64,000 nt of DNA from Candidatus Auribacterota bacterium (lineage in GTDB: Bacteria; Auribacterota; JAFGBW01; JAFGJP01): the NCBI GenBank assembly GCA_023144635.1, contig JAGLFH010000005.1:1-64000 (forward strand), given 5' to 3'. The position numbers were made by a program, and so were the translations under genes. Positions 34,732 to 48,823 of the stretch are shown here, one piece after another (the first letter of the stretch is position 1; each line of letters begins with the position of its first letter). Under the pieces are notes generated by a model, which saw nothing but the letters and a program-made list of their open reading frames with translations, ran no database searches and was not told the origin of the DNA.

Positions 34732-35079
34732 ATGGGAATGATAGAAAAAAGAAAAACTGCAAGGATCTATAAAAAGATCAAAATAGAAGTAAAAAAGGAT
34801 GCAAAGATCCGTAATCTGGGTTCAATAGACCTTAGCTCAATGGGGATAAGGTTCCGGACTAATAAGAAGGTTCCTCTTTTTGATCAGTTGGATTTTTCAA
34901 TGGATCTATCTACAGATGAAAAAAAGAAAAATGAGCTTTCTTTCAGGGCAACTGTAATTCGCTGTGAAAAATGCAAGAATGCAAAAGGATATCAGGTTAC
35001 ACTCTTTTTTCATGATCTAAAAAAGAGTGAAATAAAGAAAATAGAACAATACATTGAAAAACTGAGGATAAAAAAATGA
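34732..35079 (+). CDS. PilZ domain protein
   Basis: RKTAR (RxxxR) and DLSSMG (DxSxxG) motifs in 115 aa. Confidence 0.87.
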   Translation: MGMIEKRKTARIYKKIKIEVKKDAKIRNLGSIDLSSMGIRFRTNKKVPLFDQLDFSMDLSTDEKKKNELSFRATVIRCEKCKNAKGYQVTLFFHDLKKSEIKKIEQYIEKLRIKK

Positions 35080-36167
35080 ATATAGATGAAATTTTAAAAG
35101 CTATGGTTGAAAAGAACGCCTCAGATATACATTTTAAAGTAGGGAATACTCCTATAATGCGCATAAATAAAGATCTTGTTAACTGGGGTGATAAAAAACT
35201 TAATTCAGAAGAAACAGAAGCAATAGCAAGAAATATAATGACTTCCGGCCAGTGGCAGACCTTTGAGTATAACAAAGAAATAGATTTTGCATATACTTTG
35301 GCGGGTGTAGGCCGGTTCAGGACAAATGTTTTTATACAAAGAGGTTCTATTGGTCTTGTTATGCGTTCTGTTAAAACAACGATACTTAATTTTGAACAGC
35401 TTGGTCTTCCTACTATCCTTAAGGAAGTAAGTCTGGTAGAAAGGGGTATAATAATACTTTCCGGTGCTACTGGAAGCGGAAAGTCTACAACTCTGGCTGC
35501 TATGATAGATCATATAAACAGGACACGCCGCAGGCATATTATCACGATAGAAGACCCTATAGAATTTTTACATCAAGATTTAAGCAGCATTGTAAACCAG
35601 CGTGAAGTAGGTATAGACACTATGACTTTTCAGACAGCTCTTAAGCATGTTTTAAGGCAGGATCCAGATGTTATGCTTATTGGAGAAATGAGAGATCAGC
35701 AGAGCTTTACTGCGTCTTTGAGCGCTTCAGAAACAGGTCATGTTGTTTTAACAACTGTGCATGCTGATTCTTCGGTACAATCCATAGAAAGGATTTTAGA
35801 CTTTTTCTCAAGTCCTGAGCAAAGAGAACAGGCTAGGCTTCAGCTTTCAACTAATATTGCCGCTATAATATGCCAGAGGCTAATACCAAATATTGATAAA
35901 CAGGGTCTTGTTCCTGCTGTTGAAATTTTACGGGGAACTCCCATAGTTAAAAAATTCATTCGAGAAAATAAATTTGATAAGATCTACAAAGCTATTGAAA
36001 CAGGTAAAGAGGACGGGATGCAGACTTTTAATCAGAGTATTCTGAAACTGATACAGGAAAATAAGATCTCTGAAGAAGATGGTCTTTCAAAAGCATCTAA
36101 TCCTGAAGCCCTGCGCATGAATTTGAAAGGTATCTTCCTTGACGATTCAAAGGGAATTCTTCGTTGA
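35076..36167 (+). CDS. pilT: Type IV pilus retraction ATPase PilT/PilU family
   Basis: ASDIHFKVGNTPIMRIN, GATGSGKSTTLAAMID, ITIEDPIEFLHQ, VLRQDPDVMLIGEMRD, TVHADSSVQSIERI. Confidence 0.92.
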   Translation: MNIDEILKAMVEKNASDIHFKVGNTPIMRINKDLVNWGDKKLNSEETEAIARNIMTSGQWQTFEYNKEIDFAYTLAGVGRFRTNVFIQRGSIGLVMRSVKTTILNFEQLGLPTILKEVSLVERGIIILSGATGSGKSTTLAAMIDHINRTRRRHIITIEDPIEFLHQDLSSIVNQREVGIDTMTFQTALKHVLRQDPDVMLIGEMRDQQSFTASLSASETGHVVLTTVHADSSVQSIERILDFFSSPEQREQARLQLSTNIAAIICQRLIPNIDKQGLVPAVEILRGTPIVKKFIRENKFDKIYKAIETGKEDGMQTFNQSILKLIQENKISEEDGLSKASNPEALRMNLKGIFLDDSKGILR

Positions 36168-39991: not shown

Positions 39992-42709
39992 ATGATTATG
40001 AGTAAAAAAATAAAATTGCAATCTAAGCTTATCAGGCTTTTGCTTCTTATGGGGATCCTTCCTCTGGTGATCTTTATATTTTTTTCTTTTAATGAAGCAG
40101 AAAAGATAATTATAGAAAAAACTGGGCTTTCACTACAAAAAATTGCTACTGAAAAGGCTGCAAGGATAGACATAGTTATAGAAGATAAAATAAGAATAGT
40201 GGAAAACATTGTTAATGATGCTTTGTTTAGCAGCAGGTTTTTTGGTAATGACTTAAATTCAAAATCTAAAGATTCAGGAGCAATTGATGAGGAAACTGCC
40301 AAAGATATTGAGATTATCATTAAGCTGAATAAGGAAATAAAACACATCACCATAATAGACCTTAATAATAATATTATATATCAGGATATTAAGGATGAAT
40401 TGTTTAAAAATGAAAACAGAAAGTTATGTAACGGTATAATAAAGGATTCGAAAGAATACAGGACCTTTTTATGCAATTTTAAATACAAACCTTCAAAGTT
40501 GATAATGACTGCAAATATAGTTGTTCCTATAAAAGAAAATCAAGGGATTGTTAAAGGGTTTGCTATTTTTAATGTAAGCCTTAGGGAAATAATATATCTT
40601 ACAAGTTTTTTGAAAATAGATGATCCCTTTATCACAATTTTTCGGGATGACGGTTTTGTCGTATTAGATACGGGCAATATTTTTTATCCGTTAATCCTCT
40701 CACGAGAGATGTTGCTGGAATCTACTTTAAATAAATTTGGGTGGAGGAAAGGACTTGCGCGTCAAAAAAAAGATAATTATATTATTGGATATGCTCATCT
40801 TGAAACAATGAACAAACTACTTTTATCAAATGAAAACTATTATGTTTTGCTTTCTTTAGACGAAAAAGATGCTCTCCTTCCTGTTCTTCAGAACTATTTA
40901 CAGTTCTTTTTGATCATTGCTTTGATCATTATTCTGATACTTTTTGCAGCTCTTTATGATGTAAATAAAATAATACGACCTATAAGAGACCTTAAAGAAG
41001 GTGCGAAAATGATAGGAAAAGGATTCCTTGATCACAGACTTTCTATTCATACTGGAGATGAAATCGAGGAACTGGCAAATGCTTTTAATGAAATGGGACA
41101 GCGATTGATGGTTTCAAAGGATAAAATGGAAGATCAGACACATGAACTAAAGCGTCTAAATGACATAAAATCCAATTTTTTATCTTTAATATCCCATGAA
41201 CTGAGAACACCTCTAATGATAATTCAGGAATCTGTTTCTCAGGTGCTTGACGGAATAAAAGGTTCAATAAATGAGTCCCAAAGAGAATACCTATACATGA
41301 CCAAAAGAAATATTTTGAGACTTAATAAGATAATTGCAGATCTTTTGAACATATCACGTATAGAAGCAGGGAAGATAGTAATAAGGAGAAAAAAAATAGA
41401 TATTGCACGTACCCTTCGCGATGAAATAGATATGTATAGATTCAGGGCGGAAAAAAGAAGTATTAAGTTTCTTTCATCTATACCTAATGATGCTTTAACT
41501 CTTTATTGTGATGAAGAGAAAATAAAAATTATCATTGATAATCTTATCAGTAACGCAATTAAATTTACACCTAAAGAAGGAACTATTCGACTTGATGTGA
41601 TAGATAATGTAAATGAAATAGAGATAATTGTAAGTGATACAGGAAAGGGGATCCCTATAGAATTTCAGCAGAAGATGTTTGATAAGTTTGAACGACTCAA
41701 TAATATTCCGCTTGCAGGATCAGGAAGCACGGGATTGGGGCTTGCTATAGCAAAAGAGTTTGTATTGTTACATAAAGGAAAGATCTGGGCTAAAAGTGAA
41801 GAGAATAAAGGGAGCTCTTTTCATGTGATTTTTAATAAGTATACTGCAAGTAAATATTTCAAGGAGTATTTTAATGAGAAAATAAGAGAAGCAGAAGGAA
41901 GGCAGATCGAGCTTTCTGTTATTGTGCTGAGAGTAAACGAGTATAAAAAGGTCTATGTTGATCCTGCTAAAAAAAGAAAGCTTTTTTCACATCTTGTAAA
42001 TATTTCATTTAATAACATTTTTGATTATGAAGAGATTATTCCTCTTAAAAATATGGATGAGATATATGCTTTTCTTTTTACAGATACAAATGGAGCAGAA
42101 ATTATTGTTGAACAGCTAAACAGGATAGTAAATGATTATCTTGAAAGTAAAAACATGAAGAATAACTTTCTTGTTAACATCCTTTCTGTTTCTTATCCAG
42201 AAGACGGACGTGATCTAAAATCACTGCTAAGCACAGCGGGAAAGTTATTTACATATCTTGAGCCATTAAGAAGAAAGTCTAAAAGACTTGGAGAAATGCT
42301 GTTAGAAAAAGGCCTTGTAGATGAAAAAGCCCTTAAAAAAGCACTTGGCTATCAGGATCGAACAGGTCATTTAATAGGAAAGATCTTAATTGATTCAAAA
42401 ATAGTGAAAATCGACGATGTGGCTAAGCTTTTGAATGAGCAGCTCAGGATTCCTTTAATAAAAAGAGAAGATGATGTAAAAATAGAAAAAAAACTGTTTG
42501 AAAAAATACCAAAAGAATTTATTATAAAATATAAGGCAATTCCAGTTAAATTAGATGAGGGAATATGTCAACTGGCTATGGTGAATCCTTTTGATGTTCA
42601 GGCTATAAAGCTTATTTACCATTTGACAGATTGTAAGAAGGTATTGAGTCAGCTTATTATGGAACAGGATTTTGAGTATTTCATGAAGAAATATGAGTTA
42701 ATAGTGTAG
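39992..42709 (+). CDS. Sensor histidine kinase: extracellular sensor + HAMP + HisKA/HATPase_c + degenerate GGDEF-like region + C-terminal MshEN domain
   Basis: LSLISHELRTPLMII H-box; VSDTGKGIPIEFQQKMFDKFER, GSTGLGLAIAKEF; ILSVSYPEDGRDLKSLLSTAGKLF GGDEF-tail-like; RLGEMLLEKGLVDEKALKKALGYQ fits the MshEN signature. Confidence 0.85.
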   Translation: MIMSKKIKLQSKLIRLLLLMGILPLVIFIFFSFNEAEKIIIEKTGLSLQKIATEKAARIDIVIEDKIRIVENIVNDALFSSRFFGNDLNSKSKDSGAIDEETAKDIEIIIKLNKEIKHITIIDLNNNIIYQDIKDELFKNENRKLCNGIIKDSKEYRTFLCNFKYKPSKLIMTANIVVPIKENQGIVKGFAIFNVSLREIIYLTSFLKIDDPFITIFRDDGFVVLDTGNIFYPLILSREMLLESTLNKFGWRKGLARQKKDNYIIGYAHLETMNKLLLSNENYYVLLSLDEKDALLPVLQNYLQFFLIIALIIILILFAALYDVNKIIRPIRDLKEGAKMIGKGFLDHRLSIHTGDEIEELANAFNEMGQRLMVSKDKMEDQTHELKRLNDIKSNFLSLISHELRTPLMIIQESVSQVLDGIKGSINESQREYLYMTKRNILRLNKIIADLLNISRIEAGKIVIRRKKIDIARTLRDEIDMYRFRAEKRSIKFLSSIPNDALTLYCDEEKIKIIIDNLISNAIKFTPKEGTIRLDVIDNVNEIEIIVSDTGKGIPIEFQQKMFDKFERLNNIPLAGSGSTGLGLAIAKEFVLLHKGKIWAKSEENKGSSFHVIFNKYTASKYFKEYFNEKIREAEGRQIELSVIVLRVNEYKKVYVDPAKKRKLFSHLVNISFNNIFDYEEIIPLKNMDEIYAFLFTDTNGAEIIVEQLNRIVNDYLESKNMKNNFLVNILSVSYPEDGRDLKSLLSTAGKLFTYLEPLRRKSKRLGEMLLEKGLVDEKALKKALGYQDRTGHLIGKILIDSKIVKIDDVAKLLNEQLRIPLIKREDDVKIEKKLFEKIPKEFIIKYKAIPVKLDEGICQLAMVNPFDVQAIKLIYHLTDCKKVLSQLIMEQDFEYFMKKYELIV

Positions 42710-42732: not shown

Positions 42733-43113
42733 ATGGATAGAAAAAAGAAAATACTTATTGTAGAAGATAATGAAAAAGATCTTCAGATTGTTGTGGAGCA
42801 TTTAAGTGATGAAAATTATGAGATTATAACAGAAAGAAACGGTGAAGATGCTCTTGATTACATGGAAATGGAAAAACCGGACCTTATCATACTGGATCTT
42901 ATATTGCCGGAGATAGATGGTTTTCAAATATGCCAAAAAGTTAATAAAGCTAGAAGTAATTGGAATCCAAAAGTCATTATAATAACAGCTCTGACGCCAG
43001 TTCTTGATAAATTCAAGAGCGATTGGCTTGAAAAAACACAGGCTAATGCTCTTTTGACTAAACCTGTGTCAAAAGAAGAGCTTTTGAGCAGGATCAAAAG
43101 CCTACTTGATTAA
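42733..43113 (+). CDS. Stand-alone response regulator (REC)
   Basis: ILIVEDNEKD, PDLIILDLILPEIDGFQ, ALLTKPVSKEEL. Confidence 0.92.
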   Translation: MDRKKKILIVEDNEKDLQIVVEHLSDENYEIITERNGEDALDYMEMEKPDLIILDLILPEIDGFQICQKVNKARSNWNPKVIIITALTPVLDKFKSDWLEKTQANALLTKPVSKEELLSRIKSLLD

Positions 43114-43194: not shown

Positions 43195-44331
43195 ATGGAT
43201 AATAAAGTAGAAGAATTAAAAAAACATATAAAGATCTTGTCTGAAAGCAGGAACTTATATCAAACTATCATGAATTCACTTCAGGATGGTATATTGGTAA
43301 TTAACAAGAATCAGGAGATCCTTTTTTATAATAGCTCATTTATTAAACACCTGAATATAAAGAGCAAAAGTGCATCTATGACAATAAAGGATTTGTATAA
43401 TCATCTAATGTTTAAAAATATTTTGATGGAAACTAAAGAAATGGATTTTGTTCATTATGTAAGAGATGTAGAAATATTTTCACCACAAAAGAAATATTTA
43501 AGTGTGCAGGCTATTTGTCTAGATGGAAAAGATTCTGAAAAATCAGTAATATATATTGTTCATGACACTACAGTAACAAAGCATAAGCAGGAAGAAGCTT
43601 TTAATAAGGAAAAGATAGGCGCTGTACTTACTCTTGGTGCTGGAATAGCTCATGAACTAGGAAATCCACTTAATTCGTTAAGTATACATCTTCAAATAAT
43701 AAAAAAGTCCTTAAAAGGAAATAAAAAAAGTGAAGTAAAACTGTCAAATTTAAAAAAGCAATTGGATATTATAGAGGATGAGACAAAAAGAATGGATCAT
43801 GTAATATCCAGCTTTTTAAAGGCAATACGCCCGGAGAAAGTGCTTTATAAAGAAATAGATATAATACGGACAGTCAAAAATGCAGTTGATAGCGTTGTAA
43901 AAGTTGCTGAAAAGCATGGTGTAAATATTCTTTTTAATACGGAAATAGAGAAAAAGTACTTATTCGCAGATGCACAGAAAATACATCAAGCTTTAATCAA
44001 TATTATTCTAAATGCAATAGAAGCTATAAAAAGTAAGGGGAACATAACAATCTCATGTGATGAGCAAGCAGGATTCATTATTATCAGAATAACTGACGAT
44101 GGTCCTGGAATAGATGAGGAAAAAATATCCCAGATATTTGATCCTTTTTTTACAACTAAAGATACAGGTGTAGGTCTTGGTCTTGTTATTTCTTATCGTA
44201 TTATCAGGGAGCATGATGGTGAAATATCAGTAAAAAGTTCTCCTGGTAAAGGAGCAACATTCCAAATAAAACTTCCTCTTCGTGAATACAAAATGAAATT
44301 CCTTGAATCTAAGGTAAATAAAAGAAACTGA
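43195..44331 (+). CDS. PAS-containing cytoplasmic sensor histidine kinase
   Basis: PAS-like GILVINKNQEILFYN; GAGIAHELGNPLNSL H-box; ITDDGPGIDEEKISQIFDPFFTTKDTGVGLGLVISYRI. Confidence 0.92.
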   Translation: MDNKVEELKKHIKILSESRNLYQTIMNSLQDGILVINKNQEILFYNSSFIKHLNIKSKSASMTIKDLYNHLMFKNILMETKEMDFVHYVRDVEIFSPQKKYLSVQAICLDGKDSEKSVIYIVHDTTVTKHKQEEAFNKEKIGAVLTLGAGIAHELGNPLNSLSIHLQIIKKSLKGNKKSEVKLSNLKKQLDIIEDETKRMDHVISSFLKAIRPEKVLYKEIDIIRTVKNAVDSVVKVAEKHGVNILFNTEIEKKYLFADAQKIHQALINIILNAIEAIKSKGNITISCDEQAGFIIIRITDDGPGIDEEKISQIFDPFFTTKDTGVGLGLVISYRIIREHDGEISVKSSPGKGATFQIKLPLREYKMKFLESKVNKRN

Positions 44332-44571: not shown

Positions 44572-47085
44572 ATGAAAAAGTTAAAAATTATAATCAATAG
44601 ATTTTCTTTTAGTTCAGAGGTAATGATTTTTATTATCTTTTTAGCCTTTTTATTGTCTTGTTCAAGCTTAGCCTTTTCTGATGATTTTGATCTGGGGATT
44701 AAAGCCTATAAAGATAGAATATATGTAATATCATTAAAGTATTTCAATAAGTTTTTGGAAGAGACACAATCACGTGATATTGAAAAAAAGATACTTTCTC
44801 AATTTTATATTGCAAAAATACACATGATGGGAGGAAATATCCGAGAAGCAACTCAGATAATAGATATTATTGTTAAGAAAAAAAAGGTTCTTGTTAAGAA
44901 CGGACTTTATGATGCTGTTTTAATAATGAAAGCTCAGTCTATAGCATTTTTCTCTGGTATAGATGATTCGTTTGCCTATATTGGAAAAAAAAGGTTAAAA
45001 GCAAAGAATAAAGAATCCTGGGATATTAAACTTGGAATAATAAAGTTTCTGGCAAACTTAAAAGGTGAAGAGGTCATTGACGAAGCCCTTCTTAAATACC
45101 AGGGTAAGTTTGAGGAGAAGACAGAGGCATTGCTTTATCTAATGAAAGTAGAGCAGCTTTTAAGAAATAAAAAGGGGCATGTTGCATTAAGTCTGTTAAG
45201 TGAAAAAATAGAAAAAGAATTTGAAGTTATAAAAAAAATACCTTCACTTTATTCGTTTTACATTTTTTTAAATGCTGACGCTTTTTATCAGACAGGAGAA
45301 TATGGTAAAGCAGTTGAATTTTATAAGCAGGGACTTGCTTTTGAAGATGATCCTTATATTGATAAAGGGACATTGATTTATAAAATGGGAGTTTCTTTGT
45401 GGAAAAAGAAAGATCTTAATAATAGTTTGAAGTATCTTAATGAATATCTTCAAGAACATGATAACCAAAAAGATTATGCATCAGCTTTAAATATAGTTTC
45501 GCAAATATATATTGAACTCAAAGATTATGAAAAAGCACAAGATTTGCTAAGCGCTTATATTGACCCAGAATTAAAAGATAAAGATTATTATCGTGCTCTT
45601 TACTGGTTAGCAGAAGCTCATTATGGTCAAAATCAATTTAAAGAAGCTATTGATATTTTTGAAAATATGATGGAATCAAATGATGAAGAGACTAGTGTTA
45701 TTGCTTTATACGGGAAATCATGGAGCTTTTACATGCTTCACGAGTATGAAAATGCAAAAAATGGTTTTGAAGAGCTGCTTAATAAAGATCAATCAGCAAA
45801 AATGGAATTAAGTACCCGTCTTGTTCTTGCAAATATTTATTATTTTTTAACTGATTATGAAGCATGCAATAAAGCTCTTCTGGAATTACTGAAAAAAGAG
45901 AGTAATAAAGGAAATGATAAAATTCTTTACCGCTTGGGAGTAAGCTATCTAACATTAAGAAAATATGAGCTGGCAATAGGATCTTTTAATAAAATAATAG
46001 ATAAAAAAGATTCTACGATCCTTCGTGAGAAAGCTATTTATCAGATATCAAAAGCATATTTTTATCAGAGGGAGTTTGAACAAAGCATTAATTACAGTAA
46101 AAAGCTTATAGCTGAATATCCAAAGAGTAATATGCTTTTGAGCGCTTATCTTGATGTGGGACATTCATATTATAATATGTTCCGTTACAAGGAAGCTCTT
46201 GATACTTATCAATATGTGATAGAGAATGCAAAAAATACATATTATAAGACAAAAGCAACTTATTTTATTGGCTGGTGTTATTATCTTATGGGTAAAGAAT
46301 CAGAATCTGTTCTAGTCTTTCAATCGTTTTTAAAAGATTTTCCACAATCAAGTTTAAGTCCTGATATACAGTTTTGGCTTGGTGAACATTATTATAATAA
46401 GAAGCGTTATCAGGAATCTTTGAAATCATATAAAGAGCTTTTTGAACGTTATCCTGATTGCTCGCTTGTTGATGATGCCCTTTTTTGGGGATCAAAGGCT
46501 TCTTTAGAACTTGGTGATGAGGAAGCATCGTTATTTTTATTGGAAAAACTTATTAAAGAATATATTAAAAGTGACCTTATCCCAGATGCTTTTATTGAAA
46601 AAGCATCGATCCTTTTTGCTCAGAAAAAGTACGACTTTGCTTTGTCAAATTTAGAAACAGTAATAAAAAAATATCCTAATAGTTATCTTATTCATGATGC
46701 TCTTATAAAAAAGGGAATTATTTTAAATGAAACAGGAAAGTACCAGTATAGCCTGAAGGTATATGAAGATGTATTTATTAGGATGAGCCAAGAAAAACGC
46801 TCGATAGATCCGGAATGGATATGGCAATCAGCTGAGTTATATCACAAAACAGGTATGGACGAACAGGCTGTTGAAAAATTAATGACGCTTATATATGGCA
46901 ATTATGATAATGAGATATTTAAAAAATCTATTCTACTGGCAAAGGATATATTTGTTACTCAGAAAAGGTATGAAGATGCGATCATTTTACTGAATAAGCT
47001 TTTAAAAGAAGGTAAAAGAATAAATAAAATATTAATTAGAAGAGATATACGAAAATTGAGTTCAAAGATAAAAGAAAGGAAATAA
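44572..47085 (+). CDS. Secreted multi-TPR protein
   Basis: Signal peptide plus repeated A/Y-containing TPR helices (e.g. YKEALDTYQYVIENAKNTYYKTKATYFIGWCYYLMGK). Confidence 0.85.
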   Translation: MKKLKIIINRFSFSSEVMIFIIFLAFLLSCSSLAFSDDFDLGIKAYKDRIYVISLKYFNKFLEETQSRDIEKKILSQFYIAKIHMMGGNIREATQIIDIIVKKKKVLVKNGLYDAVLIMKAQSIAFFSGIDDSFAYIGKKRLKAKNKESWDIKLGIIKFLANLKGEEVIDEALLKYQGKFEEKTEALLYLMKVEQLLRNKKGHVALSLLSEKIEKEFEVIKKIPSLYSFYIFLNADAFYQTGEYGKAVEFYKQGLAFEDDPYIDKGTLIYKMGVSLWKKKDLNNSLKYLNEYLQEHDNQKDYASALNIVSQIYIELKDYEKAQDLLSAYIDPELKDKDYYRALYWLAEAHYGQNQFKEAIDIFENMMESNDEETSVIALYGKSWSFYMLHEYENAKNGFEELLNKDQSAKMELSTRLVLANIYYFLTDYEACNKALLELLKKESNKGNDKILYRLGVSYLTLRKYELAIGSFNKIIDKKDSTILREKAIYQISKAYFYQREFEQSINYSKKLIAEYPKSNMLLSAYLDVGHSYYNMFRYKEALDTYQYVIENAKNTYYKTKATYFIGWCYYLMGKESESVLVFQSFLKDFPQSSLSPDIQFWLGEHYYNKKRYQESLKSYKELFERYPDCSLVDDALFWGSKASLELGDEEASLFLLEKLIKEYIKSDLIPDAFIEKASILFAQKKYDFALSNLETVIKKYPNSYLIHDALIKKGIILNETGKYQYSLKVYEDVFIRMSQEKRSIDPEWIWQSAELYHKTGMDEQAVEKLMTLIYGNYDNEIFKKSILLAKDIFVTQKRYEDAIILLNKLLKEGKRINKILIRRDIRKLSSKIKERK

Positions 47086-47090
47086 AGATT

Positions 47091-47720
47091 ATGGTGCTAT
47101 TCAATATATTAGAAAAGGGCGGACCTATGATGTATTTGATCCTTGGGTGCTCTATTTTTGCAATAACAGTTTTTTTTGAAAGGCTTGCTCATTACCACAG
47201 ATCGCAGATCGATACGGATAAATTCCTTTCAGGCTTAAGAAATATTTTAAAGAAGCGCAATATGGTAGAAGCAGTAACTATTTGTTCAGAAACCCCAGGT
47301 CCTGTTGCAGCCGTACTTAAATCCGGAATATTAAAGCACGGGAAAAATAGAGAGATAATAAAGGAAGCAATTGAAGATTCAGCTACTCATGAGATTCCAC
47401 GTATGGAAAAGAATCTTGTTATTCTTGCTACGATCGCTCATATTACACCGCTTTTGGGGCTTCTTGGGACGGTTCTTGGTATGATCAAAGCTTTTATGGT
47501 CATTCATCAAAAAGCAGGCCTTGTAAACCCTGCTGATCTTGCTCAGGGAATATGGGAAGCCCTTATTACTACAGCATTCGGGCTTTCAATAGCAATTCCT
47601 ACATATATGGCATATAACTATCTGGTAAGCAGAGTGAGTACTTTTACATCAGATATGGAAAGAGCTTCGAGTGAGATCGTAAATATTCTAGATGAACAGG
47701 AAGATGAATATGAGATTTAA
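47091..47720 (+). CDS. MotA/TolQ/ExbB proton channel family protein
   Basis: GGPMMYLILGCSIFAITVFFERL, LATIAHITPLLGLLGTVLGMIKAF, ALITTAFGLSIAIPTYMAYNYL. Confidence 0.92.
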   Translation: MVLFNILEKGGPMMYLILGCSIFAITVFFERLAHYHRSQIDTDKFLSGLRNILKKRNMVEAVTICSETPGPVAAVLKSGILKHGKNREIIKEAIEDSATHEIPRMEKNLVILATIAHITPLLGLLGTVLGMIKAFMVIHQKAGLVNPADLAQGIWEALITTAFGLSIAIPTYMAYNYLVSRVSTFTSDMERASSEIVNILDEQEDEYEI

Positions 47721-48129
47721 GAGAAGACTGAAAATTGAAGAGGGGCGTCTTGACCTTACACCACTTATTGATGTGGTCTTTCTATTGCTTATATTTTTTA
47801 TGCTATCATCTTCATTTATATTTCAGCCAGGTATCAGGGTGAAACTGCCGGAATCTAGTATTTCAGAAACAAAAAAAGAAAAAAGTTATGAGGTTATACT
47901 TACTCAGGAAAATCTTATGTTTTTCAATGGAGAAAGGATCTCAGTTGAAGGTCTTAAGCGAAAAATGAAGATAATAGGAAAAACAGCACCTGAAGCTGTA
48001 CTTATAATAAGAGCTGATGAAAGTGCCCGCCACAAATATGTTGTAAGGGTTATGAGCATTGCAAAGATGAATGGTATTAAAAAATTAGCAATAGCTACGA
48101 CTCCTGTAGAAGGAAGCAATGAAGAATAA
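47692..48129 (+). CDS. ExbD/TolR family protein
   Basis: LDLTPLIDVVFLLLIFFMLSSSF, VRVMSIAKMNGIKKLAIAT; true start may be 47704 or 47710. Confidence 0.92.
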   Translation: MNRKMNMRFKRRLKIEEGRLDLTPLIDVVFLLLIFFMLSSSFIFQPGIRVKLPESSISETKKEKSYEVILTQENLMFFNGERISVEGLKRKMKIIGKTAPEAVLIIRADESARHKYVVRVMSIAKMNGIKKLAIATTPVEGSNEE

Positions 48130-48823
48130 AATTTTCCTGATATCTTTTATTATAGCTGTAGTTCTACATCTGCTTTTTTTTCATGTATTACGTATAGAAA
48201 GTCCGGGAGTGATAGCAATTACTGAGAGTGAAGTTTATCTGATAGATGATTTTTCTGCTGCCGAAGATACACCTGTATTAAAAGTAACAGAAAAAAGTTC
48301 TAAAGTAGCACCTTTTTTTTCGCTTCCTGGAGTTTATCAGAAGATATATTCAAGTGATATGAAGCATTCAATAAGTACTTTGCGTGAAGAAACAGATATA
48401 AGCGGATATGATCCGTTTAAGCAGGATAAAAAGATAATTTCACATTCAATGGATTTTTCACCGGTTATTAATAGAGTCTCTTCAAAAGTACATACTATAA
48501 TTACAAGTGGTGAAAAGGAATTATTGGAATCTCTTACAAATAAGGGAGGGGGCAGCATCAGCATAAGGCTTTCAAAGAGCCTTTTGAAGTTCTTTAATGA
48601 GGATATTATTAACAATGAGCTTAAGGATAACTATCTTGAACCCGGATCTAAAATGAATATACAGGTTATCTTTTTTAATAAAAATTCGTTTTCTGTCATG
48701 CTTGATAAGGAAAAAGGAATACCATCAAAAGAACTTTTTATTGTCTTTAACAAAGCATTACTGAGAAAGCGCTTTATACCAAAAAAGGTTACTGGAAACA
48801 TTTATGTTTGGAGAGAAAGATGA
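48119..48823 (+). CDS. TonB/TolA-position membrane-anchored protein
   Basis: Single N-terminal TM, periplasmic region, position directly after exbB/exbD; no clear TonB C-terminal motif. Confidence 0.55.
   Translation: MKNKIFLISFIIAVVLHLLFFHVLRIESPGVIAITESEVYLIDDFSAAEDTPVLKVTEKSSKVAPFFSLPGVYQKIYSSDMKHSISTLREETDISGYDPFKQDKKIISHSMDFSPVINRVSSKVHTIITSGEKELLESLTNKGGGSISIRLSKSLLKFFNEDIINNELKDNYLEPGSKMNIQVIFFNKNSFSVMLDKEKGIPSKELFIVFNKALLRKRFIPKKVTGNIYVWRER

Follow-up and report, generated by a model that had tools for sequence, protein, structure and literature searches.

Can a membrane-bound histidine kinase read c-di-GMP through a domain of pilus motors? The usual place of MshEN domains is the N-terminus of pilus and secretion ATPases. 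A gene from Candidatus Auribacterota bacterium raises the question of what such a domain does at the C-terminus of a sensor kinase. The gene lies on the forward strand of contig JAGLFH010000005.1, in a stretch of 64,000 nucleotides (positions 1 to 64,000) that we refer to as the window. An earlier note on this DNA had described the product as a histidine kinase fused to a GGDEF-like region and a C-terminal MshEN domain. Pfam, NCBIfam and structure models placed all of these parts in one uninterrupted frame of 905 aa with an ATG start, in the order TM, dCache-like sensor, TM, HAMP, HisKA, HATPase, degenerate GGDEF and MshEN (Table 1).

The catalytic core has the motifs of a classical HisKA kinase. 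Besides the H-box, the ATP-binding domain carries the N box DNLISNA at residue 516, the G1 box DTGKGI at 549 and the G2 box GSTGLGLAI at 578. Judged from the sequence, the Pfam and NCBIfam domain matches together with these intact kinase motifs are far beyond chance. The match of the sensor region to dCache_1 (residues 39-274) is 27.3 bits in the window protein and 40 bits in its ortholog from another genus, both below the Pfam cut-off of 45, and a PDB search using the sensor region returned no matches.

Table 1. Features of the kinase gene and its two conserved downstream neighbours, in window coordinates
Feature	Position	Strand	Basis or description
Whole gene	39992..42709	+	membrane histidine kinase of 905 aa; degenerate GGDEF and MshEN domains at its C-terminus
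Two TM helices (about residues 11-36 and 294-329) around dCache-like extracytoplasmic sensor (39-274)	40022..40975	+	hydropathy; dCache_1
HAMP, residues 326-372	40967..41107	+	Pfam PF00672, 47 bits
HisKA, residues 393-460, H-box SHELRTPL at 401	41168..41371	+	Pfam PF00512, 50 bits; motif position
HATPase_c, residues 507-614, N/G1/G2 boxes intact	41510..41833	+	Pfam PF02518, 89 bits
Degenerate GGDEF, about residues 620-758, with NMDEI (687-691) for GGDEF and Phe677 for the I-site Arg	41849..42265	+	hhalign, AF2, Foldseek, hmmsearch
MshEN_N, c-di-GMP double motif, residues 765-817 (RLGEMLLEKGLVDEKALKKALGYQ - DRTGH - LIGKILIDSKIVKIDDVAKLLNEQ)	42284..42442	+	NF053729, E 6.6e-14
MshEN_C alpha/beta subdomain, residues 818-905	42443..42706	+	PF05157; model
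Next gene: single-domain response regulator (REC), probably the partner in phosphotransfer	42733..43113	+	Pfam Response_reg, 75 bits; also adjacent in both orthologs
Second conserved gene downstream: soluble PAS-HisKA-HATPase kinase, NtrB-like	43195..44331	+	Pfam; same neighbour in both orthologs

The segment that follows the ATP-binding domain had been likened to a GGDEF domain without its catalytic motif. By Pfam it falls short, as it reaches 16 bits against a cut-off of 23.8; the homologous segment of a paralog in the same genome (L043:5341-7704, REC-PAS-kinase-GGDEF-like-REC) is above this cut-off. The profile-profile comparison did identify it. With hhalign, a profile of seven kinase-linked segments matched a profile of five true GGDEF domains at 98.95% over 139 columns, a result that is supporting rather than independent because the five true domains were partly picked via hits of a similar profile. 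A sequence search of the PDB with the kinase-linked profile (hmmsearch) also returned diguanylate cyclases of known structure (E 1e-12), the AF2 model of the region (pLDDT 88, pTM 0.83) has the GGDEF topology, and every PDB match found by Foldseek with E <= 0.001 is a GGDEF structure. The region thus has a true GGDEF fold, and the likeness seen earlier was correct. Its catalytic motif is gone: in the alignment to true GGDEF domains NMDEI takes the place of GGEEF at residues 687-691, and both residues of the I-site RxxD, which lies five residues before that motif, are replaced (Arg by Phe677, Asp by Glu681). We considered an active cyclase and a c-di-GMP receptor of the SgmT type and ruled both out on NMDEI and the loss of the I-site Arg; neither role is expected of such a sequence. 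The domain is as conserved between the two full-length orthologs (70% identity) as the ATP-binding domain (67%) and therefore appears to be under selection. Most likely, this dead domain is kept for a structural or regulatory role.

A profile of the GGDEF-like segment also found HisKA kinases with a GGDEF-like domain after the HATPase in further families of the phylum (L067:2481-5240, L068:4389-6920) and among paralogs (L043, L066:2985-5237). In this recurrent design the degenerate domain comes right after the HATPase and is either terminal or followed by REC. The GGDEF motif is lost, and the RxxD pattern of the I-site is retained in the alignment in L066 and L068. Elsewhere, a PilT-type retraction ATPase (L072:2489-4192, genome G014) carries a degenerate GGDEF-like domain at its C-terminus.

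For the final part of the protein, a failure of residues 764-905 to match MshEN had been named in advance as grounds for rejecting the assignment, and a clear match was obtained. Pfam MshEN scores 40.2 bits at residues 820-894 against a cut-off of 23.1 (40-44 bits overall). The NCBIfam model NF053729 (cyclic di-GMP-binding domain, MshE-related) is above its cut-off as well, spanning the entire 53-residue double motif with 49.8-51.5 bits on C-terminal fragments against 38. The first residues of motifs I and II are 765 and 794, and this spacing of 29 (24 + 5) is the canonical 24-5-24 arrangement. The AlphaFold model of the MshEN part is confident, with pLDDT mostly 84-97 and about 90 or more in MshEN_C until the last ten residues, and shows a four-helix MshEN_N and an alpha/beta MshEN_C. 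Its best PDB match is c-di-GMP-bound MshE (5htl, TM on target 0.82-0.84), PilF GSPII-B also matches, and the nearest solved chains by sequence are the N-terminal domains of PilF, PilB and MshE. In a tree of MshEN domains the two kinase MshEN domains cluster with full support; the nearest relatives of the pair were not resolved.

We also compared the residues that contact the ligand. In MshE these are positions 1, 2, 3, 17, 21 and 24 of each half of the motif (PMC5013675). The window kinase has R L G L L Q in motif I and L I G V L Q in motif II, and its ortholog has M L G L L Q and L L G L L Q. We accepted R/K/L/M at position 1, L/I/V/M at 2, 17 and 21, G at 3 and Q at 24. By this extended consensus with hydrophobic substitutions, used when 62 MshEN domains were compared, both kinase orthologs are acceptable at 12 of 12 contacts. 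Eight other MshEN domains of the same genome were scored: two reach 11 or 12, one reaches 8, and five are degenerate with 3-5. The earlier note had given one departure of motif II, a Gly-to-Lys change. The change is indeed present, but it is one of four departures from the 2016 consensus (R to L, L to I, G to K, L to V). The Lys occupies position 10, a helix turn without ligand contact in MshE (PMC5013675), and the other three changes are conservative or known to be tolerated. Leu at position 1 is not a defect, since PilF GSPII-B has Leu there and binds with a KD of 6 nM (2 nM for its K167L mutant), which led its authors to widen the consensus to (R/K/L)LG (PMC11731258). Large hydrophobic replacements (Ile) at positions 17/21 of PilF GSPII-A constructs cost only about 2.4-fold (PMC12002112).

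Taking the sequence and the model together, we think it likely that the C-terminal MshEN domain binds c-di-GMP. It might instead have lost the ligand and remain only for structure or protein interaction, a leftover like those of XpsE or PilF GSPII-A. The four deviations of motif II, including Lys at position 10, would fit such a loss, and so would the clearly degenerate state of several MshEN domains of this genome and the dead GGDEF domain alongside, which shows that the lineage keeps dead domains. We nevertheless consider this improbable, as neither ortholog shows more than a conservative replacement at any contact. Gly3 and Gln24 of both motifs are invariant in the two kinases, whereas the clearly degenerate MshEN domains of the phylum have mostly lost one or the other.

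The ortholog in question (L041:802-3507) comes from another genus of the same family and has an identical architecture. It is followed, as in the window, by a single-domain REC gene, an NtrB-like kinase gene and then TPR and ExbB-type genes. This comparison also bears on whether the fusion is real. A chimeric contig or a read-through from kinase into MshEN would be conceivable in a draft assembly of 75 contigs, and an ortholog from another family does lack MshEN. The independent genome, however, has the same in-frame fusion at the same point, with 62% identity across the GGDEF-like and MshEN parts and no stop or frameshift in either gene. The chance of an artefact is thereby negligible and in practice ruled out.

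The ortholog from the other family (L042:5827-6915, its N-terminus cut by a contig end) has HisKA, HATPase and GGDEF-like domains in the same order and then ends, with the same REC and NtrB-like neighbours. The 249-nt gap downstream of it contains no MshEN relic, which favours a gain of MshEN in one family. From these sequences a gain would be the simpler reading, although with one outgroup a loss is also possible. Sister families with and without MshEN, in the same gene neighbourhood, offer a natural case for studying the effect of gaining a c-di-GMP receptor. In the window the kinase trio is trailed at 44572-48823 by genes for a large TPR protein, ExbB, ExbD and a short TonB-like protein; TPR and ExbB trail the trio in the sister genus too. 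On the other side, at 34732-36167, a PilZ-domain gene overlaps a PilT-type ATPase gene by 4 nt.

How widespread is the combination? Our searches covered a sample rather than a census: 59 relatives, for which the query was the entire C-terminal part; 40 genomes of a second phylum and one further genome, queried with the c-di-GMP motif; and 77 genomes of another phylum. Within the sampled genomes the combination of kinase, dead GGDEF and MshEN is found in one bacterial family only. Among the matches listed from about 160 further genomes, with varied searches and inspection of frames of unusual length, no other MshEN on a HisKA kinase was seen. The frames inspected in the second phylum carry MshEN on Ser/Thr kinases, CheA, DUF4388-like proteins and membrane proteins. 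A scan of a genome contig database with the C-terminal 289 aa gave PilB-type ATPases only, and a plasmid search gave four weak MshEN matches. Three of them fall in annotated genes, all for GspE/PilB-type ATPases, and no gene is annotated at the fourth.

The genome is well supplied with c-di-GMP proteins, with 16 GGDEF, 40 PilZ, 7 HD_5 (HD-GYP-type) and 10 MshEN matches. Hence, c-di-GMP is very probably both made and read in this organism. No EAL domain was found in the genome, and degradation is apparently by HD-GYP only.

Sensing by dCache-type domains, with the signal passed via HAMP to the HisKA/HATPase core, is the established logic of such kinases. We lean, by a small margin over even chances, towards a membrane kinase with two inputs, in which an outside signal and internal c-di-GMP jointly control kinase/phosphatase activity. 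The dCache-like domain would read an outside ligand and signal through HAMP to the core. On the cytoplasmic side, c-di-GMP would be bound by MshEN between its two 24-residue motifs and would reorient MshEN_N relative to MshEN_C. This change could be relayed through the dead GGDEF domain, which adjoins the ATP-binding domain, and alter either autophosphorylation or the phosphatase activity acting on the single-domain response regulator whose gene lies just downstream. The REC protein at 42733-43113 is a fairly probable partner. This reading draws on an MshEN domain above two curated cut-offs, whose model resembles c-di-GMP-bound MshE and PilF GSPII-B, and on contacts acceptable at 12/12 in both orthologs when five of eight other MshEN domains of the genome are degenerate. 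It further draws on the tolerated Leu at position 1 (PMC11731258) and Ile at 17/21 (PMC12002112), on the c-di-GMP-rich genome, on the ortholog of another genus that keeps the architecture and the REC and kinase neighbours, and on the precedent of ShkA, where c-di-GMP acts through an accessory domain to activate the kinase directly (PMC7010744).

Several observations count against it. Between the two orthologs identity is lower in the MshEN part (47-53%) than in the kinase core and GGDEF-like domain (67-76%), position 1 of motif I is Met in the ortholog, and position 10 of motif II is Lys in both. In PilF GSPII-A intersubdomain contacts can prevent binding even after the consensus motif has been restored (PMC12002112), and the C-terminal GGDEF domain of SgmT bound c-di-GMP while kinase activity was unchanged (PMC3509222). 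The last case leads to the main rival, namely docking or sequestration: MshEN would bind c-di-GMP but serve as a location module that recruits the kinase to a partner (a PilZ protein, a type IV pilus or T2SS platform, or a cluster) and hardly affects catalysis directly. In SgmT, c-di-GMP on the C-terminal GGDEF domain relocates the kinase (PMC3509222). In X. citri PilB the binding partner of an MshEN-type domain is PilZ, in T2SS such domains bind GspL-type proteins (PMC8389850), and the PilZ-PilT gene pair of the window lies 4-5 kb upstream in the same direction. The partner is hypothetical, however, the kinase is already membrane-bound, and among the cytoplasmic parts of the protein MshEN_C, which usually provides the docking face, is the one conserved least (47%). 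We regard docking as unlikely. If the domain does bind c-di-GMP, control of kinase activity rather than of location is a reasonably good expectation.

A more tentative proposal, which we consider less likely than not, concerns the origin of the two-input kinase. An ancestral kinase may have read c-di-GMP through the GGDEF I-site, whose RxxD pattern is still present in the related kinases L066 and L068, and lost that site, and one family may then have gained a high-affinity MshEN receptor. It would be the first membrane HisKA kinase gated by c-di-GMP via a pilus-motor domain, with the dead GGDEF domain transmitting the signal.

Was the wiring little described, as the earlier note held? For a membrane HisKA kinase this is fair, but kinases of related kinds were already known. 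With the MshEN domains of MshE and PilF GSPII-B (PMC5013675, PMC11731258) the window kinase shares the 24-5-24 double motif, the contact residues, the four-helix MshEN_N and the alpha/beta MshEN_C, and with PilF GSPII-B also the Leu at the start of motif II. It differs in carrying the domain at the C-terminus of a sensor kinase rather than the N-terminus of an ATPase and in having Lys for the turn Gly of motif II. The main text of Wang et al. (2016) names MshEN fusions to REC, HD-GYP, CheA, CheX, cyclases and Ser/Thr kinases (PMC5013675); the words "histidine kinase" are absent from that main text, and an earlier HisKA-MshEN entry may stand in its Supplementary Table 4, a list of MshEN architectures. 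CheA with an inserted MshEN_N (PMC5013675; L093-L096) likewise joins the motif to a histidine kinase, but CheA belongs to the soluble class II kinases, has Hpt and CheW domains and contains MshEN_N alone. The window kinase is a class I HisKA kinase of the membrane and has a dCache-like sensor, HAMP and the full MshEN. Such a CheA is also encoded in the own genome (L044:3523-6303, contig C11), with the MshEN_N double motif between the Hpt and dimerisation domains; L093-L096 are from another phylum. Histidine kinases ending in a GGDEF domain are known both with and without c-di-GMP binding. SgmT of Myxococcus xanthus has a C-terminal GGDEF domain on a histidine kinase too (PMC3509222), but is a hybrid kinase with a GAF sensor and reads c-di-GMP via the I-site, whereas the window kinase has lost the I-site Arg and has an MshEN domain of its own after the GGDEF domain. 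TmoK of M. xanthus is a kinase with a C-terminal GGDEF domain, and its description in PMC8844925 reports no MshEN domain. ShkA of Caulobacter (PMC7010744) would be alike in its c-di-GMP-switched activity if the two-input reading holds, but uses a non-homologous pseudo-receiver domain in place of MshEN.

A membrane HisKA kinase with a dead GGDEF and an intact MshEN was not found in the published literature searched, which for Wang et al. took in the main text. Both halves are thus known in kind, and the combination of the kinase with dead GGDEF and MshEN is what appears to be new. If the two-input reading is true, two-component phosphotransfer and c-di-GMP, the two main bacterial signalling systems, are joined in one membrane protein via a portable high-affinity receptor domain.

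MshEN domains turned up in two further settings. Ser/Thr protein kinases of another phylum (L092:2395-4860, L097:2195-4417) carry an N-terminal MshEN and a second kinase-like domain. In the own genome (L008:1468-1947 with L003, contig C14), and also in L014, L025, L031, L035 and L037, a MshEN-only protein of about 146-205 aa is encoded directly before a PilB/GspE-type ATPase. These small proteins recur in several families of the phylum and keep 11-12 of 12 contacts, and the MshEN domains of the adjoining ATPases are down to 7-9 of 12, as if c-di-GMP binding may have moved from the ATPase to a separate subunit.
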